Shown here piece after piece: positions 3,828 to 64,000 of a DNA stretch of 64,000 bases (positions within the stretch are counted from its first letter, which is position 1; each line of letters starts with the position of its first letter). The stretch lies in the NCBI GenBank assembly GCA_963422465.1, contig OY730171.1, positions 3,596,001 to 3,660,000 on the forward strand. Reading direction: 5' to 3'. This stretch comes from Lichina pygmaea. Its lineage: Eukaryota > Ascomycota > Lichinomycetes > Lichinales > Lichinaceae. Below the pieces are notes generated by a model. That model was given only the letters and a program-made list of their open reading frames with translations, ran no database searches and was not told where the DNA came from. Both the position numbers and the translations under genes were made by a program.

Positions 3828-5433
3828 TTAATCTTCCTCGTCCTCCTCGAGCGGCTCCACCACGAGGTTGGTGTTGTTCTTGATACACGCGCCCACCATG
3901 ACGTCGGCCTCGGCCTCGTATACCGTTCGAGGCAACGGTGACACCAGCCGGAACTGATACGCGTGCTTGTATCCATGTGGTTTCTGCGCTCCCGAGGCCA
4001 GAGGGCCAGACGAGGCGTGGCCCGCTGGGTCGCGCGGCGCATCGTGGCACTCGACAAACGCGTACACCTCCTCGACCGACGCCTCCGAGGAGAACCGCCT
4101 CAGAATCCTCTCACCGGACGGCATCCTAATGCTGACTCGCGTCGAGGCTTCCGCATCTTCTGCGTCAGGCTCGGCCGACAGCTGTCTGGCCCGCCATAGC
4201 TTCCATTGTAGCAGGTCACGTTCTCTCTTCTCTTGCGCTTCCGCTCGTTCTCGTTGTTCTCGCTCCGCTCTAATTCTCGCGGCTTCGGCCTCCCGTCTCT
4301 CCCGTGCACGTTCGCGATCCTGAGCAAGAGAACGCTGGTATGCCGAGTTCTGCTCCTCGCGAAGGCTCCGCTCGGCTTCTCGCGACTCTCGTGCGGTGCG
4401 GGCTCGGTCTAAAGACTCTGAATGTTGATTGATGGCTTCCTGTAGCTTGGCGACGAATGCGCCTGGCGGAGTTGGGCCCACGATACGGGCCACGACCGAC
4501 ATGGCGCTTGACGATACCTGAGGAGTGTGAGCGATTAGGGCAGCGAATGGAAACTTGGTGCAGTTAAGAGCAGCCGAGACTTGATAGGCTTCCGAGTCCT
4601 GAACGGTACCAGCCCAGACAATGATTCTGTTCTCGGCGTTGGTGATACAGTCGACCACCTCTCGGGAGAGCAAGGTATTCTGGATGAAGGACGAGGTGTC
4701 ATCATGCTCGGGTGAGAGCAGTATTATGAGCAGAAACCGCAGATCCCTCTTCGCTAGATCAAGCGCTTGCGCGTAACCGTTGTCGTAGAACGGTATGGGA
4801 CTCGGGCCGTATTCTTCTTCGAGCTCGCGCACGAACCTGGCGGCCGTGTCACGCGGGCTAAGGGAACGGCGCTCGGTTGCAGTCGCGAGAGGACGGGCCG
4901 GGCCTCGGTGCGCCAGGCCTGCCGACGGAAGCAGCCTCTGCAGGAAAGGGAAGAGGTGGGAGAAGAGGCCGAGAGGTCTTGCGAGGAGACGGTATATGAA
5001 ATTGAGCGGAAGCAGCAAGAGACTGATGATGAACGGTGGTCGACGGTTGACCTGCGGCACAATTCTTGGAGCGGGCGTGATCCCCCTTAAGGAGGACGGC
5101 AGTCGAGGGGGAAATGTCGTGGAGCCATTGAGCAACGTCTCTGATCGTCTTGTTGACGCTGCGGCCGGAACAGATGGAGCAACCTGCTCGTTTCCTGACG
5201 TGGCCGCGCTGTCGCCATCAAAGAACCTCGAGACGGCAATCTGTAGCACGGCTGTTAGGGGAATATATTCAGCCGGAACGCCACCGGAAAAGACGGACCT
5301 GGACGTTCCACTCGGACCTCCTAAGGACGGGCAGGGCAGCTTCCATTTGTTGGTTGGTGACGGACATGAACTGTTGCAGAGCCTGTTGTTGAGCATCGCT
5401 CAGCTCCGAAATGTCCAGGGCGTTCTGCTCCAT
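3828..5433 (-). CDS. UBA-UAS-UBX protein, FAF2/UBXD8/Ubx2-like Cdc48 adaptor
   Basis: Two exons, 5433-5299 and 5240-3828, joined across a 58-bp intron (GTCCGT..CTACAG, branch CTAAC). The product is 515 aa. The splice rebuilds an N-terminal UBA-like domain (about residues 8-52), joining SEWNVQ to IAVSRFFDGD. A hydrophobic hairpin at about 112-145 (PPFIISLLLLPLNFIYRLL) would insert into the ER or lipid-droplet membrane. A thioredoxin-like UAS domain follows (about 176-312), then a charged coiled coil (325-395), then the UBX domain (about 408-505). This is the layout of FAF2/UBXD8 and fungal Ubx2/Ucp10, which recruit Cdc48 to ubiquitinated ER proteins for ERAD. ATG 5433 is preferred because it opens the UBA frame. 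Confidence 0.88.
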
Positions 5434-47793: not shown

Positions 47794-50700
47794 ATGGACA
47801 CTGCTCCTCAGTATAGTCCTTCTGGCTCTACCAACGACGATAGCGACTCGACACCAGGCAGCCCGAAAAGCTTGTCCAATGTCGGGCAAGAGACACCACG
47901 GCAACCTGATGGCGAGGTCCTCGATAGAGCTACTGGAGATGCTTTGCCCTCGGACAAGAGAAGTGCGTTGCTTCAACCGAGATCTTACCAGCTAGAAATG
48001 CTTGAGATAAGCTTGGAGAGGAACATCATTGTTGTGGTAAGTATGCGTCTATGCCTATATCTATGCCCGGCACTAAGCGGAGATAGATGGACACTGGCAG
48101 CGGAAAGACTCACATGTACGACTCCGCTTTCGAGTGATGGCGGCCTCTGCTCCGGGAAGAAAGTGGAGCAGAATTATATTGTCAACTGCGAGGTGTCCGT
48201 GATGTTGACCCAGTGCATGACCCAGAGCTACTCTTCGCATAGCCGCGCAGCTTGAGCGATGCCAACCCGATCAGGTATGAAACTGGCCAGATCCTCCAGC
48301 ATGGCTGATCTAGGCTCTAACAAACGAACAGTATGTCTGGTTTCTTGCACCAACTGTGACATTGTGCAAGCAGCAGTACGATGTGCTGTGCCTGCATCTC
48401 CCTTCGGTGCAAGTACGGTTTCTCAGCGGAGGAGACAAGCCTGAGCTTTGGAGGAACCAATCAATCTGGGATGACGTCCTAAAGAACATCAGCGTTGTGG
48501 TCTCGACACATGCCGTGCTCCTCGACGCCTTATCAAATGGATTCGTACGCATGAAATCCTTGGCTCTCCTCGTTTTTGACGAAGGTGTGCAATGGGAGCA
48601 TTTCGTGCAGATTGCAGCTGTTAATACGTTCCAGCACATCATTGTGTGAAAAAGCACCCGGCAAACCACATCATGCAGTCCTTCTATCATCCTGCCCTAA
48701 AGGGGGGGAACGGAAAGGTGCCACACATCCTGGGACTCACTGCTAGTCCTGTCATGAATCTGAAGCCTCAGAGCCTGCAGTGAGTCTTTAACTTTGCATT
48801 CGCCATCCATCGCTAAGGATCCTCCAGAATTGTAGAGACCAACATGAACGCGATAAGCAAGACTCCCAAAGTACACCACGAGGAATTCTTGAAGCACGCG
48901 AATCGACCAGCGCGAGAAAAGCTGGGGTATTTCCTTGATCTCAGGTCTATCTTACGATCGGGCCTCCTGAGTAAGCTACTCAGTGTGACCGATTCTCTCG
49001 ACATCAATGAGGACCCTTCGGTTGCCGAGCTTCGGAAGCAAAACGATCCTGTAGGTCGCAGCCGACTTGAAAAGGTGCTGAAGACACGTCGGACGCACTG
49101 TCGAGACCAGATCAAGTCGCTGCGCAACAAAGGTGAATATATCAACCTGGAGCTCGGCTCATGGGCTGCGGATTTCTACATATCGAGTGCCATCAGAAAG
49201 CTTCGAGACTCCATCGTGGACAAGGAAGAGTGGTTGGGTGAGTGGACCGGTCGTGAGAAGGAGTATTTATTGACGATACTTCTACGCGTGGAGCCCCTAT
49301 CTTCTGGACCGAGTTACTTCACCGCTAAAGACATGAATGTCTCGCCCAAAGTCGAACAGCTCCTTAGGCTCCTGGCTAGAGAGCACAACCCCAGCTTGAC
49401 AGGTCTCATATTTGTTCAGCAACGGGCTGAGAGCGCTGTACTAGCGCACCTGATCTCAGTTCATCCCTCTACCAAAGATCTATTTCGGTGCGGAACGTAC
49501 GTGGGTACTTCGACCAACTCGCAGAGAAAGTATACGGACGTCGCAGAGTTACTAGATCCGAGGGATCAGCAGCACTACCTCGATGACCTTCGCGAAGGCA
49601 GGAAGAACCTCATCATCGCAACTAGTGTGCTGGAGGAGGGCATCGACGTTTCGTCGTGCAACCTCGTAATATGCTTTAACAAGCCTGTCAACCTCAAGAC
49701 TTTCATCCAGAGGCGAGGTCGAGCCCGCAAGATGCAAGCCAAGTTCGTCATCATGGTGAACGATAACGACGCCGCTACAAATGCTAGGGACTGGGAGTCG
49801 GTCGAGGAGCAGATGAAGGCAGAGTACATGGACGAACTTAGGGAACTGGAGGAAATCGAAGAACCAGATGATGGGAAAGAGTCATATGACGTGCGGCTTG
49901 AGATCCCATCGACAGGGTACGTGAAAAATGAGTTTGACCAGGTCGCTATGGTTTACGACGGGTCTGTCCTTGCCGGTCTCAAAGGACCAGCGATTCACCA
50001 TCGATCTTCCCTCTCTTTGATTATACTATCGAGCGATTATCAGAAGATCTTGCTTGCGATCCCTTGTCGCTTTAACGCTGACGCGGCCTCAGCGCCCTCC
50101 TCACCCCGGAGAACGCGGTGCAACGCCTCTACCACTTCTGCAATGTCCTTCCCCCCGACCCGTACGTCGACCCCCAACCGGAGTTCACAATCGAGGATGG
50201 CTTGGCAGGCGTTTCAGCCATCGTGGTTTTACCAACCTCAGTACCGCATCACGTGCGCCGAGCCCGAAGCCATCTGGCCTGGGAGACCAAGCGGACAGCG
50301 AAGAGAGATGCTGCTTACCAGGCCTGTCTAGCACTGTATAAAGAAGGGCTCCTCAATGACCACTTTCTCCCACTGTTTCACCGTAAAGACATTTACACAT
50401 CTCTGGAAGCCATTGGAATAACAGCCTCGATTGTGGACGCGCGCCCGTTGCTCAATCCCTGGGTCGAGATTGCCAATTCCTGGCGGAATGCCACCACCGT
50501 TCATTCCACACAGATAAGTATACGAGACGCCAGCGGAAACATGCGAGTTGGGATGAATATGGTCTTGCCCGTGGCACATCCTCTACCACCAGCCTTCGAT
50601 ATCTACTGGGATGCGGACCACCGATGGTCGGTGTATTCTGAGGCAGGTGACGCTGCAGCAATAGACCCCACGAGTGCAGAGCTGTACTCTGTGATAACGG

Positions 50701-52775
50701 AAGCTCTCCTACAGTCTGTCTTCCGGCCACGCATGGAAAAGGGGGCAAAGGACTTTGTTGCCCTCTTCACGCCCTCCGTGGAAGCCGCCTCCTGCGAACA
50801 GTGGATTGTCTCGTTCGAGGGGCGTCGTCCAGCGGAAGAACTCTATGACAACAGTGCCACGGACCTGTCAGGTGACGGTTATGGTGTTGTGCGTCTCATA
50901 ACACACAATCGTTCCCCGCATATATTTAGAGACTGGGCCATACGTGAGGTGCGAACGGAAGGGGATGCAGCCTCAGCTGAAGAAGACATTATCGTCGAAA
51001 AGCTTCATGTTGAAGCGACAAGGTGGCCCAAACGAACTGATCTGCTACATCCCGTGACAGCCAACGAGCAGAGAGCTCGCAGCATCAAGTACCTGCTCGC
51101 TCAGCATTGCGAAGTTGACAATCTTCCACTGCAGCACTCGCAGTTCGCTTTCTGCGTGCCGTCAATCTTGCACAAGTACGAGGTGTATCTCATCGCTGAC
51201 CAGCTCCGAAAGACACGACTCGCGCCGGTACAGTTTCAGGATCTAGACGGGGTCGTCATGGCCCTCTCCGCATCATCGGCTCGCGAAGGCGTCGACTACC
51301 AGCGCTTGGAGTTCCTGGGCGACAGCGTTCTCAAGTGGTGCATCTCGCTCCAGCTTCTGGCGGAACACCCCAGCTGGCACGAGGGTTACCTCACGACACA
51401 CAAGGCGCAGATCGTAGCGAACCCGCGCCTCGCCCAGGCGGCCGTCGACTTCGGGTTGGATGGCTACATCTTGACCGAGGCGTTCACGGGCCGCAAATGG
51501 AGACCGCTCTACCAGTCGCATCTGACAGAACCGCCGACGCCAACCCCGAGGAAGGTGGCGGCGAAGAGACTGGCAGACGTCGTCGAGGCGCTCATGGGAG
51601 CGGCCTTCATCGAGGGCGGACTCTCGACAACGCTCCAGCTCATGCAGATGCTTCTTCCCGAGCTCCGATGGGCCGCGTTGAGCGAACGATGCCAGCAGCT
51701 GCTGAATCTGGTACCAGGGGACGTTTCGATGCCGTCTCACTTCTATCTGCTGCAAGAACTCATTGGCCATCAGTTTGGCAAAGGAGCTCTCTTGGTAGAG
51801 GCCATGACACATCCGTCGTACCAGGCGGACACCAGAGTGGTCACGTATCAGCGGCTCGAGTTCCTCGGCGACGCGATCCTTGACCAGATCGTGGTGAAAG
51901 CATTGTGGACCGCTAATCCGGCGCTGCCGCATTACGAGATGCATCTCATGCGCACAGCACTCGTCAACGCTGACTTCCTCGCTTTTCTTTGCATGGAGCA
52001 TTCGGTTCAGGAGACCCGCATGGACATACGAAAGGCAGCCATCGGTGGTGGTTGTGTCGTCTTCAACCCAGCGGAGACCAAGGTCGACCACTACATCTGG
52101 CAATACATGCGACGCACTAACGATGTCATCGCACTGACGCAAAGGGAAACCGTGGAGCGCTTCTGCACGTACCATCAGGCCGTCCGCTCGGCGCTCAATG
52201 ACGGTTACGAATACCCGTGGCTAGACTTGGCTCGTATCTGTGCAGACAAATTCTTCTCTGACCTCGTCGAAAGCATCTTGGGAGCGATCTATGTCGACAC
52301 CCTGGGCGATCTGGGCGCTTGCGCCGCGTTTCTGGAGAAGATTGGGCTCATGTGGTATCTCGGCCGATTGATATCCTGCTCGTCGGTGCTGAACACGGAA
52401 GGAAAGACCATAGAAATCATGCACCCCAAGGAGCAGCTTGGCAAGAAGACCATGACCCAGAAACTCAATTATGTTGGATTTCGAGGCGTCGGCGATCCCA
52501 CCGTAAGTGACACCGATACTCTCAGCGACACAGCCGAACGTCAGGACTAACTTTCTCCAAAGCGGACTGCTTCAGAGAATCATGTACCCAGCCCTCTTTT
52601 CGGTTGCCGAGTCTTTTTGGGCGAAAAACACTTGGCAACGGTCGAGGGAGAGCCGTCGAGATTCACGGCCGAGACAGCCGTGGCCATGAAAGTTCTAAAG
52701 GAGATGGGCCGTGCATGCTTTCATCCTTTTGAAGGAGTTCCAGCTACCGCAGAGGTCCATAGAAGCTACTATTGA
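47794..52775 (+). CDS. DCL2: Dicer-like ribonuclease III, DCL2 type
   Basis: Eight exons: 47794-48036, 48087-48115, 48226-48274, 48332-48584, 48635-48779, 48828-49916, 50093-52502 and 52563-52775. All phases agree; 1476 aa. Helicase motif I is MDTGSGKTH. Motif II DEAH is split by an intron (GACGAAG | CACAT). Motif III is LGLTASPV. The HELICc part shows [35 protein letters not shown] and FIQRRGRAR. The Dicer dimerisation domain is [14 protein letters not shown]. RNase IIIa has [14 protein letters not shown] with [15 protein letters not shown]. RNase IIIb has [14 protein letters not shown] with [16 protein letters not shown] short dsRNA-binding-like end ([20 protein letters not shown]) closes the protein. 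No PAZ domain is evident, as in fungal DCL2. The enzyme cuts double-stranded RNA into siRNAs for quelling and antiviral defence. ATG 47794 is the best start, but the frame is open upstream. Confidence 0.92.
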
Positions 52776-60100: not shown

Positions 60101-60497
60101 TGTAAGAGTGCTAGAGTCTTAGCAGGACAGAGTTGTGATGAAGGCCTGTTCTCTAGGCAGCTACTGAAAGGTGCCTGGAAGGTGTTGTCAAGTAAGTCTG
60201 TAGAGTATCACTCAATGGATAGAAACTGACAACTGGCCTCTCAACCAGTGTTGGGGGGAGGCCTGCTTATATGAATCTTGCTTAATGATCATGTGACTTG
60301 GTATGTACATGTCACATGACTGCTAAGCAAGATGACATGCAGCCAAACCCAGTCAGGTGCTTGCACAAGCTGTGTGGCTCCTGACAGGTCCCCCTCTCCT
60401 AGGGTCACAGTCTCTTGTGACTATACTAGGCACATGTCCCAGAACCAAGCCCAGAAAGCTTCCAGACTGACCCTGAGATACAGCTCTCCCAGGAAGT

Positions 60498-60510
60498 AAC
60501 ATGTGAAGAA
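60498..60510. repeat. SINE target-site duplication, left copy
   Basis: AACATGTGAAGAA, identical to 60951-60963 on the other side of the SINE. Confidence 0.85.
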
Positions 60511-60950
60511 TGGGGCGGCATAGTGTAGCGGGAAGCTGGTGAGAGTTTCTCACTACGTGGCACCCATGACCCGGAACTAGTGGTGTCAGGCCTGGAGAAC
60601 CTGACTAAACTAGTTGTCAGTTCAAATCTGACCCACCCCACATTCTGCCACAAAAACCCCCAAGATTCATAGAACTTGTCTAAGATGTACTCCTCGCAAG
60701 ATGTATGAAAACCCCCAAGAAATAGCTCACCCAATATCTGTCAAGATCCACAAAACCCTTATTACTGTGGTTTTCCTATTTCCCCTACAGGGTTTGGGGT
60801 TTTCCCACAGTACGTACACTACAAACCACAGAGTGTACGGTAAATGCGTGAGGTCCCCGAGTCAAGTCTACCAGAGACAAAAATCCTTCAAGAAGTTCTG
60901 CATGGCTTAACAGCCAAATCAGTGTAAGAATCAAATCAAATCAAATCAAA
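60511..60950 (+). mobile_element. tRNA-related SINE, 440 bp
   Basis: Bounded by perfect 13-bp direct repeats. The head has both parts of an internal Pol III promoter: an A box TAGTGTAGCGG (60521-60531) and a B box GTTCAAATC (60620-60628). A perfect 5-bp T-arm lies around the B box (GTCAG/CTGAC, 7-nt loop), and an acceptor-like pairing joins GGGGCGG (60512-60518) to CCACCCC (60633-60639). An anticodon-like arm GTGAG/CTCAC is also present. Between the arms sits a long hairpin (AACTAGT..ACTAGTT enclosing GTCAGG..CCTGAC, 60574-60615), not found in normal tRNAs. A 280-bp body with two AAAACCCCCAAGA strings follows, then a tail of four TCAAA units (60931-60950). Simple-repeat tails and target duplications are the marks of LINE-driven insertion. 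No ORF is expected. It interrupts older repeat sequence. Confidence 0.85.
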
Positions 60951-60963
60951 AACATGTGAAGAA
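60951..60963. repeat. SINE target-site duplication, right copy
   Basis: AACATGTGAAGAA, identical to 60498-60510. The bases that follow (GTGGAGCAAATT) would have continued the pre-insertion sequence. Confidence 0.85.
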
Positions 60964-61017
60964 GTGGAGCAAATTCTGGCTAAAAAGAAATATTTCACAG
61001 CAGGAGGAAAAGACAAG

Positions 61018-61430
61018 TGTTAAAGGCCAGTCCACGTTCACACAGAATGTGGGTGGTCCTGTCTTCGACCGAGGAGGGCAGGGACTCAATAGATGAATAG
61101 CAAGTGGGGTAACTCTCTTGCTATTGTCGCTCGTAATGTGCGTTCAGCCTGGAGAGCTATTCTCTCCGGCTATCTGGGTTCTTATATACAGAAGCCTGAG
61201 GGGGGGGGGTCCTCCCGAGGGGTATCAGCTTTCTGCGTGGACGAGCTGGACGAGCTGGTTACACATCGTCCACCTCGTCCACCGGGTCGGGTGAACATTG
61301 TTCCTGTGGATGAGCTGGACGAGCTGGTTACACATCGTCCACCTCGTCCACCGGGTCGGGTGAACATTGTTCCGTGTACTTCTGTACACTCGCTTCGGTC
61401 GGCTCAGCCGTTCCGGCCTGGGCCTTAACA
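61018..61430 (-). repeat. LTR of a Ty3/Gypsy element (3' LTR, 413 bp)
   Basis: Begins TGTTAAAGGCC and ends GGCCTTAACA on the plus strand, so it has 10-bp inverted termini and the TG..CA rule is met. Read on the minus strand, a purine tract (GGAGGGAGGGGA, 61443-61432) lies just before it, which marks it as the 3' LTR of the leftward Gypsy element. It holds a tandem pair of 69-bp units (61237-61305 and 61306-61374). Confidence 0.85.
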
Positions 61431-62013: not shown

Positions 62014-64000
62014 AGTTCTCGGTGGGTTCCCACGAGTTCTCCTCATTGTCATACCCTAACCACTTGACCAGGTATTCGATTTTCCGTCCGCTTCTCCGGC
62101 TGTCTAGGATCCTTTCGACATCGTACTCTTCTTTGTCGTCCTCAAAGTGCTATTCTGTTTTGATTGCTGCGTCGCTGGGTGCTGGCTCAAGCAGCAAGAC
62201 GTGGAATACTCGGTGTATCCGTGCCTTTTTTGGCAGTCTCAGTCGGTAGTTGACTTCTCCAGTGCGCTTCTCAATCTCAAACAGTCTGATTCGTACATGA
62301 TCCAGCTTTTTGCTCGGTCGCTTCAAGCGCAGGTTTTTTGTTGACAAATAGACCTTATCCCCCCTCTCCAGGGTTGGTCCCTTCAACCTTTTGCTGTTTA
62401 GGTGGTGGCTTGTTGTCTTTTGTGCGGATTCAATTGCAGTCTTCATTTCCTCATGCATAGCAGTGAGTTTTTCGATGTTCGTTGAAGTGCCACTTCCAGC
62501 CGCCATCGCTTCCCAGCGGGGGTTTCTGCCGTAGTTCGCAAAGAACAGCGTCATGCCCGTCACGCTGTGTTGCTGATCGTTGTACGCAAACTGAGCCATT
62601 GGTAGCAGTTCTACCCAATCATCCTGTCGGTGGTTGACGTAGTGGTGTAGGTACTGTTCCATCGTCTGGTTTGTTCTCTCAGTTTGTCTGTCTGTTTGTG
62701 GATGGTAGGCAGTAGACATCCTTGTGTCTATCCCTAGCTGTCTTGTCCACGTGTTCCAGAATTTTGAGGTGAAGAGTTTGTCTTGATCCGAGATAATCTT
62801 CGTGGGTAGCCCTCGCTGGCTAACCAATTCTTTGAGCAGGACATTGGCGAGTTCGCTCGCTGTTCCTGTCTCTCGCCACAGGATCAGGTGAGCGTATTTG
62901 GTGAGTTTGTCAACAACCACCAAGATACTGTCATATTTCACCTTTGTTACCGGGTCCTCTGACCTCGGCAGCTTCACCACAAAATCCATTGTGATGGTAT
63001 CCCAAGCCGCTTCTGGGAGGTCCATTTGTTGACTCTCTCCATAGGGTTTGTGGCGTGACAGTTTGTTTTTCGCACACTCTTCGCAGTTGCGAATAAATTC
63101 TGTCACTTTCCGCTTCATTCCGTTGAAGTGGTAACATCTCCGGATCTTTTCCAGGGTCTTGTCTTGCCCAGGATGTCCGTGTAGAGGTCCATCGTGATGT
63201 TGTCAAATCACGTCCTCTTGTGCGCTCTCTGGCACTTCTTCCTTGTTCGTGGCCGCAACGTTGTGGCCTAGGGTCAGGAGTGCACCCATTTCTTCAGTTT
63301 TCGCTAACTGAGGTTGAGCATAGACCAGAGTTTGTCCTTTTGTCACTAGGATTGGGTGCTCTTCTGTCGTGTTGTCTGTCGTCATATCAGGCTGTCTGCT
63401 AAGCGTGTCCGCTCGTGTGTTTTCTGATCCTTTTCAATAGAAGATCTGGAAGTTGTATGAAGCTAAAAGCTCCGCCCATCAGACTTGTTGTCTGTTTAGC
63501 TTCTTCGTCGTCGTGAAGTAAGCCAAATTCTTGTGGTCTGAGTACACGTCCACTGTGTACTTTGCTCCTTCCAGGTAAGGTCTCCACTCCTGGAATACGT
63601 CGACAATCGCTAACAACTCCTTGTCGTGAACATCATACCTGAGTTCTGGGCCAGAGAACTTTCTTGATCAGTATGCGACAGGGTGTAGGCGGTTTTCGGC
63701 GTCTGGTTGACACAAGCAAGATCCAAGTGCTTGGTCTGAGGCATCTGTCTCCATGATGATCCACCGTCCGGGATCAAATGATGCCAGTATGGGTGCGGAG
63801 GTGAACTTCTCTTTCAGCTCCTGGAACGCTCTCTCTTGGCTGTTCCCCCATGTGAAGGTTTCTTCCTTCTTTGTTAGTTCAGTCAAGGGTGCTGCTGTCC
63901 TCGAGTACTCCTTGATGAATCATCAGTAGAAGTTCGCAAATCCCAGGAAGGATTGGACTTCTTTGAGGTTTTTGGGTGTTGGCCAGTCTTGTACTGCCGT

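Follow-up and report, generated by a model that had tools for sequence, protein, structure and literature searches.

At positions 60498–60963 of the window (the whole 64,000-nucleotide stretch analysed here), the initial annotation described a 440-bp unit with A and B boxes, a perfect T-arm, a (TCAAA)4 end, and identical 13-bp flanks; all of these are read directly from the sequence, and the structure is real (Table 1). The large hairpin reported before the T-arm is likewise present, as an inverted repeat of 16 bases (60575–60590 / 60600–60615, 81% complementary). The element is short and non-coding, its longest stop-free run being 92 codons with the start codon ignored. Its first base, 60511, varies among 41 copies (T in 18, A in 14, G in 6, and C in 3), and hence may lie outside the element. 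Two TTTT runs in the body, at 60771 and 60800, are a point against the reading as a SINE, as Pol III could stop there.

Elsewhere in the window, a protein encoded at 3831–5396 (minus strand) has its best named match in Peltula (59% identity over 89%), with a further match, to an entry lacking a name, at 90% over 64%; lichen fungi account for many of the named matches in the 120 listed of 1383, which suggests a Lichinomycetes-like lichen fungus as host. A Dicer-like gene with helicase C-terminal, Dicer-dimerisation, and RNase III domains lies at 48844–52547 (plus strand). Integrase domains of an LTR retrotransposon are seen at 62153–63118 (minus strand), with a reverse transcriptase (RT) match just past the window at C3:3660040; as judged by eye, this LTR element may begin near 61018, adjoining the fragment that hosts the 440-bp element.

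Table 1. Features of the element and its insertion site (window coordinates; TSD, target-site duplication).
Feature	Position	Strand	Description
Left TSD	60498–60510	+	AACATGTGAAGAA, 13 bp, 0 mismatches against the right TSD
SINE	60511–60950	+	440 bp; one of 40 scored full-length copies; flanks differ between copies
tRNA-like head	60512–60639	+	Acceptor-like arms 60512–60518 / 60633–60639, 6/7 pairs
A box	60521–60531	+	Majority of copies: TGGTGTAGCGG
First predicted head hairpin	60525–60556	+	Arms 60525–60537 / 60544–60556 (fold); overlaps the A box
Large hairpin	60575–60615	+	Immediately 5′ of the T-arm (fold); part of the ~55-base head surplus
T-arm	60616–60632	+	Perfect, 5 bp; contains the B box (majority GTTCGAATC)
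SINE body	60640–60890	+	Between the head and the LINE-like tail
3′ tail common to LINE 3′ ends of the genome	60891–60950	+	82–90% identity, E down to 2e-15
Small tail hairpin	60903–60916	+	TGGCT-TAAC-AGCCA; stem kept, loop variable in LINEs
(TCAAA)4 terminal repeats	60931–60950	+	Count and spacing differ between copies
Right TSD	60951–60963	+	AACATGTGAAGAA, identical to the left TSD
Insertion host, ORF2 fragment of another LINE	60436–61017	+	Split by the SINE: at least 60436–60510 and 60964–61017

An internal Pol III promoter, consisting of the A and B boxes, is recognised in the head by sequence. Across both strands of the window, a perfect T-arm combined with an A box and with acceptor arms that pair at 6/7 positions or more is found a single time, and in 60 random 64-kb sequences from an order-1 Markov model, each read on one strand, not at all; the T-arm and acceptor set taken without the A box occurs twice in the same 60 sequences. 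With the Rfam tRNA model RF00005, neither the window copy nor five sibling copies give a hit at E ≤ 10; ARAGORN with default settings predicts no tRNA in the window and, with introns allowed, none in the SINE head. As both tools reject it, the head is called here only tRNA-like, and no named tRNA origin is claimed.

A search of the genome (32.5 Mb in 8 contigs, the smallest of which, C8, with 47,955 bp and sampled as C8:1-10000 (L095), reads as one frame free of stops in all directions, as masked letters would, and is possibly the mitochondrion) shows that the element is not unique. Full-length copies with at least 97% identity number 40, the window copy included, these being the scored copies, the most similar to the window copy among 819 first-look candidates; rates of TSDs and of divergence in this set hence lean toward young copies. 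With at most three mismatches, 218 heads and 203 bodies are found in the whole genome, and none in reversed controls, by which count the family size is about 200 or more copies; the similar numbers of heads and bodies suggest little 5′ truncation. For comparisons between copies, an older copy in L094 was added to the 40 scored ones. These 41 copies diverge from their majority sequence by 0.7 to 4.4% (median 1.8%), and the window copy by 1.6%, or 1.0% outside CpG; hence, the insertion, annotated as young, is so in relative terms, and no further. In the same 41 copies, C-to-T changes (on either strand) are concentrated at CpG, with 145 of 984 cells, compared to 0.1–2.1% in other contexts, which speaks for methylation of CpG, or for a RIP-like process acting on CpG, and not for CpA-directed RIP.

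Different flanking duplications had been expected for the copies of a SINE, and 37 of the 41 full-length copies have a TSD of their own (11–14 bp, at most one mismatch; perfect in 34 of the 37), although a few copies sit in copies of one repeat. Of the two outcomes that the initial annotation named as refuting, a unique sequence and flanks common to all copies, neither is thus seen. No clear TSD was found in the remaining four (L017, L021, L039, and L048). As a control, left flanks were paired with right flanks from other copies, and 1.2% of the 1640 pairs attained the TSD score, in some cases owing to a repeat that hosts both copies. The target shows a strong preference for T at position −1 (36/37), A at position +1 (32/37), and, more weakly, C at position −2 (28/37); CT precedes the TSD in 28 of the 37 copies, while the window copy has GT/A (here and below, the slash marks the start of the duplicated target).

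With the element taken out, the joined flanks are found uninterrupted at all 40 scored places (of 329 candidates), with 88–98% identity. These empty-site places are copies of the LINE fragment hosting the window SINE, a 5′-truncated ORF2 piece from a different LINE in the same orientation; in L098, the stretch homologous to this fragment lies in an ORF just ahead of the RT domain. Similarly, L032 holds a LINE 3′ end that is interrupted by a SINE but intact in its sisters. The SINE L038 and the 3′ junctions of the LINEs L080 and L093 occupy an identical CT/ATC position of one repeat. This dispersed repeat (...CTATC...GACTATATAGTGCT...) is a recurrent landing site of both SINEs and LINEs (L012, L016, L038, L043, L080, and L093), with landings at two neighbouring CT/AT positions. 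A fixed 2.1-kb element around the target was also considered and dropped, the left border held in common being the edge of the truncated LINE fragment in the window itself.

The last 60 bases of the SINE (381–440) match the 3′ ends of four LINE groups, labelled A to D in this analysis, with E down to 2e-15. Over 49–50 columns, identities to the SINE tail are 44 for group A, 45 for B (with gaps), 43 for C (with gaps), and 44 for D. Groups A and D align with the tail core without gaps, and the (TCAAA) unit matches that of group B. Of the two features that the initial annotation proposed to look for in LINE 3′ ends, a (TCAAA)n tail and a shared body, the (TCAAA)n unit is present in one group; the tail as a whole is shared by all four. 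The SINE body has no BLAST match among the LINE loci examined. The exact SINE tail occurs in no LINE group sampled, which is a point against the pairing, and LINE-type upstream sequence is joined to a SINE-type tail at a single place (C1:5641978) among the matches listed. Hence, the partner may be rare, lost, or outside the sample, or a sampled LINE may tolerate the difference.

Of 85 SINE-type tails, 71 belong to scored copies or have a listed SINE head or body no more than 450 bp away; the remaining 14 sites among the matches listed, C1:5641978 included, may be ordinary SINEs. The A/D-type tail pattern is found at 217 places and the pattern with B/C spacing at 658; all 30 of the latter that were read letter by letter are of the B/C type, and at least one other (C2:52162) belongs to a SINE copy that has gained a base. 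Of the 38 SINE copies with a readable pattern, 37 have a spacing of 16 and fall outside the B/C pattern (spacing 17). The tail stem TGGCT/AGCYA keeps its 5 bp in seven aligned sequences, with a variable loop; only one pair varies among these seven (G-C to G-U), and against shuffles the hairpin is not clearly better folded (z from −0.5 to −1.3). A stem with a variable loop recalls, by analogy, LINEs of the stringent type, which we offer as a suggestion.

Two complete LINEs, L090 (5476 bp) and L091 (5554 bp), each have a 13-bp TSD. Their stop-to-stop open frames comprise, respectively, 493 and 416 codons for ORF1, and 1090 and 1083 codons for ORF2. Both ORF2s contain endonuclease (PF14529) and RT (PF00078) domains above the cut-off and no match to RNase H PF00075; no Pfam match was obtained for either ORF1. 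An arrangement of two ORFs, the second holding endonuclease and RT, is a trait of the Tad1 clade and is seen in these candidate partners. The initial annotation had postulated an active partner LINE; an active LINE is likewise predicted here from the long open frames. A loose TSD search over 16 LINE loci returned ten rows, two of them from one site, and no candidate at six loci; in the nine distinct insertions with a proposed TSD of 11–17 bp, T is seen at position −1 in 7/9 and A at position +1 in 6/9, so that these few LINE insertions resemble those of the SINE in TSD length and in the lean of the target. Stops in the listed RT matches (at least 150) are mostly TGA, although not counted exactly, as decay of CGA to TGA would give.

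Taken together, these data support, at the sequence level, the SINE interpretation of the initial annotation: we consider 60511–60950 to be a SINE copy with a tRNA-like head, a candidate Pol III transcript mobilised by tail-sharing LINEs (probability about 0.94). LINEs such as L090 and L091 probably copy it. In the proposed mechanism, RNA polymerase III would start from the A and B boxes and make a SINE RNA of ~440 bases; a LINE protein would recognise the ~60-base 3′ tail, that is, the conserved core and (TCAAA)n, common to several LINE groups; the LINE endonuclease would nick the bottom strand opposite the (C)T/A target; reverse transcription would be primed on the tail (target-primed); and repair would duplicate 11–14 bp of the target.

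Instead of a retroposon, the element might be a fragment of some larger repeat, a product of segmental duplication, or a DNA transposon of the MITE type. Some copies indeed have common flanks (L012 and L043; L024 and L025), as they sit in copies of one repeat, and the body contains several internal inverted repeats. However, no inverted repeat of at least 8 bases joins the ends of the element, and the sole listed inverted-repeat pair at the 5′ end stops at 60646; furthermore, the number of 3′ repeats is variable, and the tail is of the LINE type. The individual TSDs, the precise empty sites, and the inverted-repeat search rule these candidates out, and we regard any of them as extremely improbable.

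Within the SINE reading, the head requires separate consideration, as its 128 bases exceed a 73-base tRNA by ~55. This surplus, with the large hairpin, might be a retained tRNA intron, the family having arisen from an unspliced intron-bearing pre-tRNA. Most tRNA genes of the genome seem to be intron-bearing: among 37 matched loci (from 62 scored of 631 candidates), 27 span more than 90 bases, and all 15 genes fetched (L099–L113) have introns, of 9–63 bases according to ARAGORN, although these 15 had been preselected from the 37 for a length of at least 95. Such long spans and introns make an unspliced pre-tRNA head plausible; its length falls inside the tRNA gene spans of 95–137, and ARAGORN with a lowered threshold reads it as tRNA-Ser with a 48-base intron. 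The same threshold, however, also gives a conflicting tRNA-Leu on the opposite strand of the same stretch; the best fold has self-contained hairpins in place of a normal anticodon arm; and these intron-bearing genes match the tRNA model, whereas the SINE head does not. Nor is there a convincing parent among the 15 of 37 loci compared, the best scores being 10/31 on the 5′ side (L101, tRNA-Gln, mostly the A box) and 9/24 on the 3′ side. The alternative is that the head derives from an intron-less tRNA, with the surplus either acquired afterwards as a hairpin or representing a grossly oversized variable arm. In class II tRNAs, the variable arm stands directly before the T-arm, and the large hairpin abuts the T-arm at that very place; folding of the head against shuffles gives z of −2.35 for the window copy and −2.63 for the majority sequence. 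No independent counter-evidence bears on this origin, although no ancestor lacking the hairpin was seen. We consider a later hairpin or enlarged arm an evenly balanced proposition and a retained intron doubtful; that the family both keeps an unspliced pre-tRNA intron in its head and has a hybrid tail copied by several LINE families is less likely still. If the head does represent an unspliced pre-tRNA, it would indicate which tRNA precursors can seed SINEs.

The analysis adds a well-resolved SINE and its LINE relatives to the few ascomycete sets. With its 200 or so copies, or more, its clean TSDs and sharply preferred target, and a tail common to several LINE groups, this set is a good natural test of how strict LINE proteins are about their template. 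The statement of the initial annotation that SINEs are seldom documented in filamentous ascomycetes is fair in part, as several genera are named: Magnaporthe, Fusarium, Erysiphe/Blumeria, and Nectria, with Aspergillus fumigatus added (PMC5063351). For lichen fungi, the accessible part of a repeat survey of Solorina crocea gives SINEs as absent (PMC12387558), and the list in the accessible part of a survey of Umbilicaria pustulata contains no SINEs (PMC8773270). Our literature search, subscription papers being outside its scope, found no paper on Lichinomycetes retrotransposons and no lichen SINE, and priority is unproven.

Tail sharing between LINEs and SINEs is already known in ascomycetes, hence, the Lichina SINE is a further case and not a new phenomenon. 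Mg-SINE/MgL and SINE2-1_BG/Tad1-24_BG are listed SINE/LINE pairs (PMC3747384), and the Tad1 clade is among the LINE clades with such pairs (PMC4176376). Mg-SINE of Magnaporthe, similar by description, not by sequence, has a tRNA head, a length of 472 bp, and about 100 copies (PMC5063351), and is paired with the LINE MgL/MGR583 (PMC3747384); it differs in belonging to another fungal group, and here several LINE groups have the tail. SINE2-1_BG/Tad1-24_BG of Blumeria, an ascomycete pair of a tRNA SINE and a LINE (PMC3747384), is again likened by description, not by sequence. The fish LINEs UnaL2 and ZfL2 (the latter of the L2 clade) and their SINEs would work in a like manner, through a common 3′ tail that carries terminal repeats and a small stem-loop (PMC4176376); the need for the stem-loop in stringent-type LINEs was established there by assay (PMC4176376), whereas here it is suggested. 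AfuSINE2-1a of Aspergillus fumigatus has a 3′ end similar to the 3′ UTR of the LINE I-1_AF, with short 3′ repeats, and its partner belongs to the Tad clade, to which the LINEs here are likened (PMC5063351). An RNase H domain is described for I-1_AF (PMC5063351), and ORF2 of L090 and L091 gave no PF00075 match. The differences are in copy number (an estimated 4, compared to about 200 or more here) and in the repeat unit (ACT instead of TCAAA).
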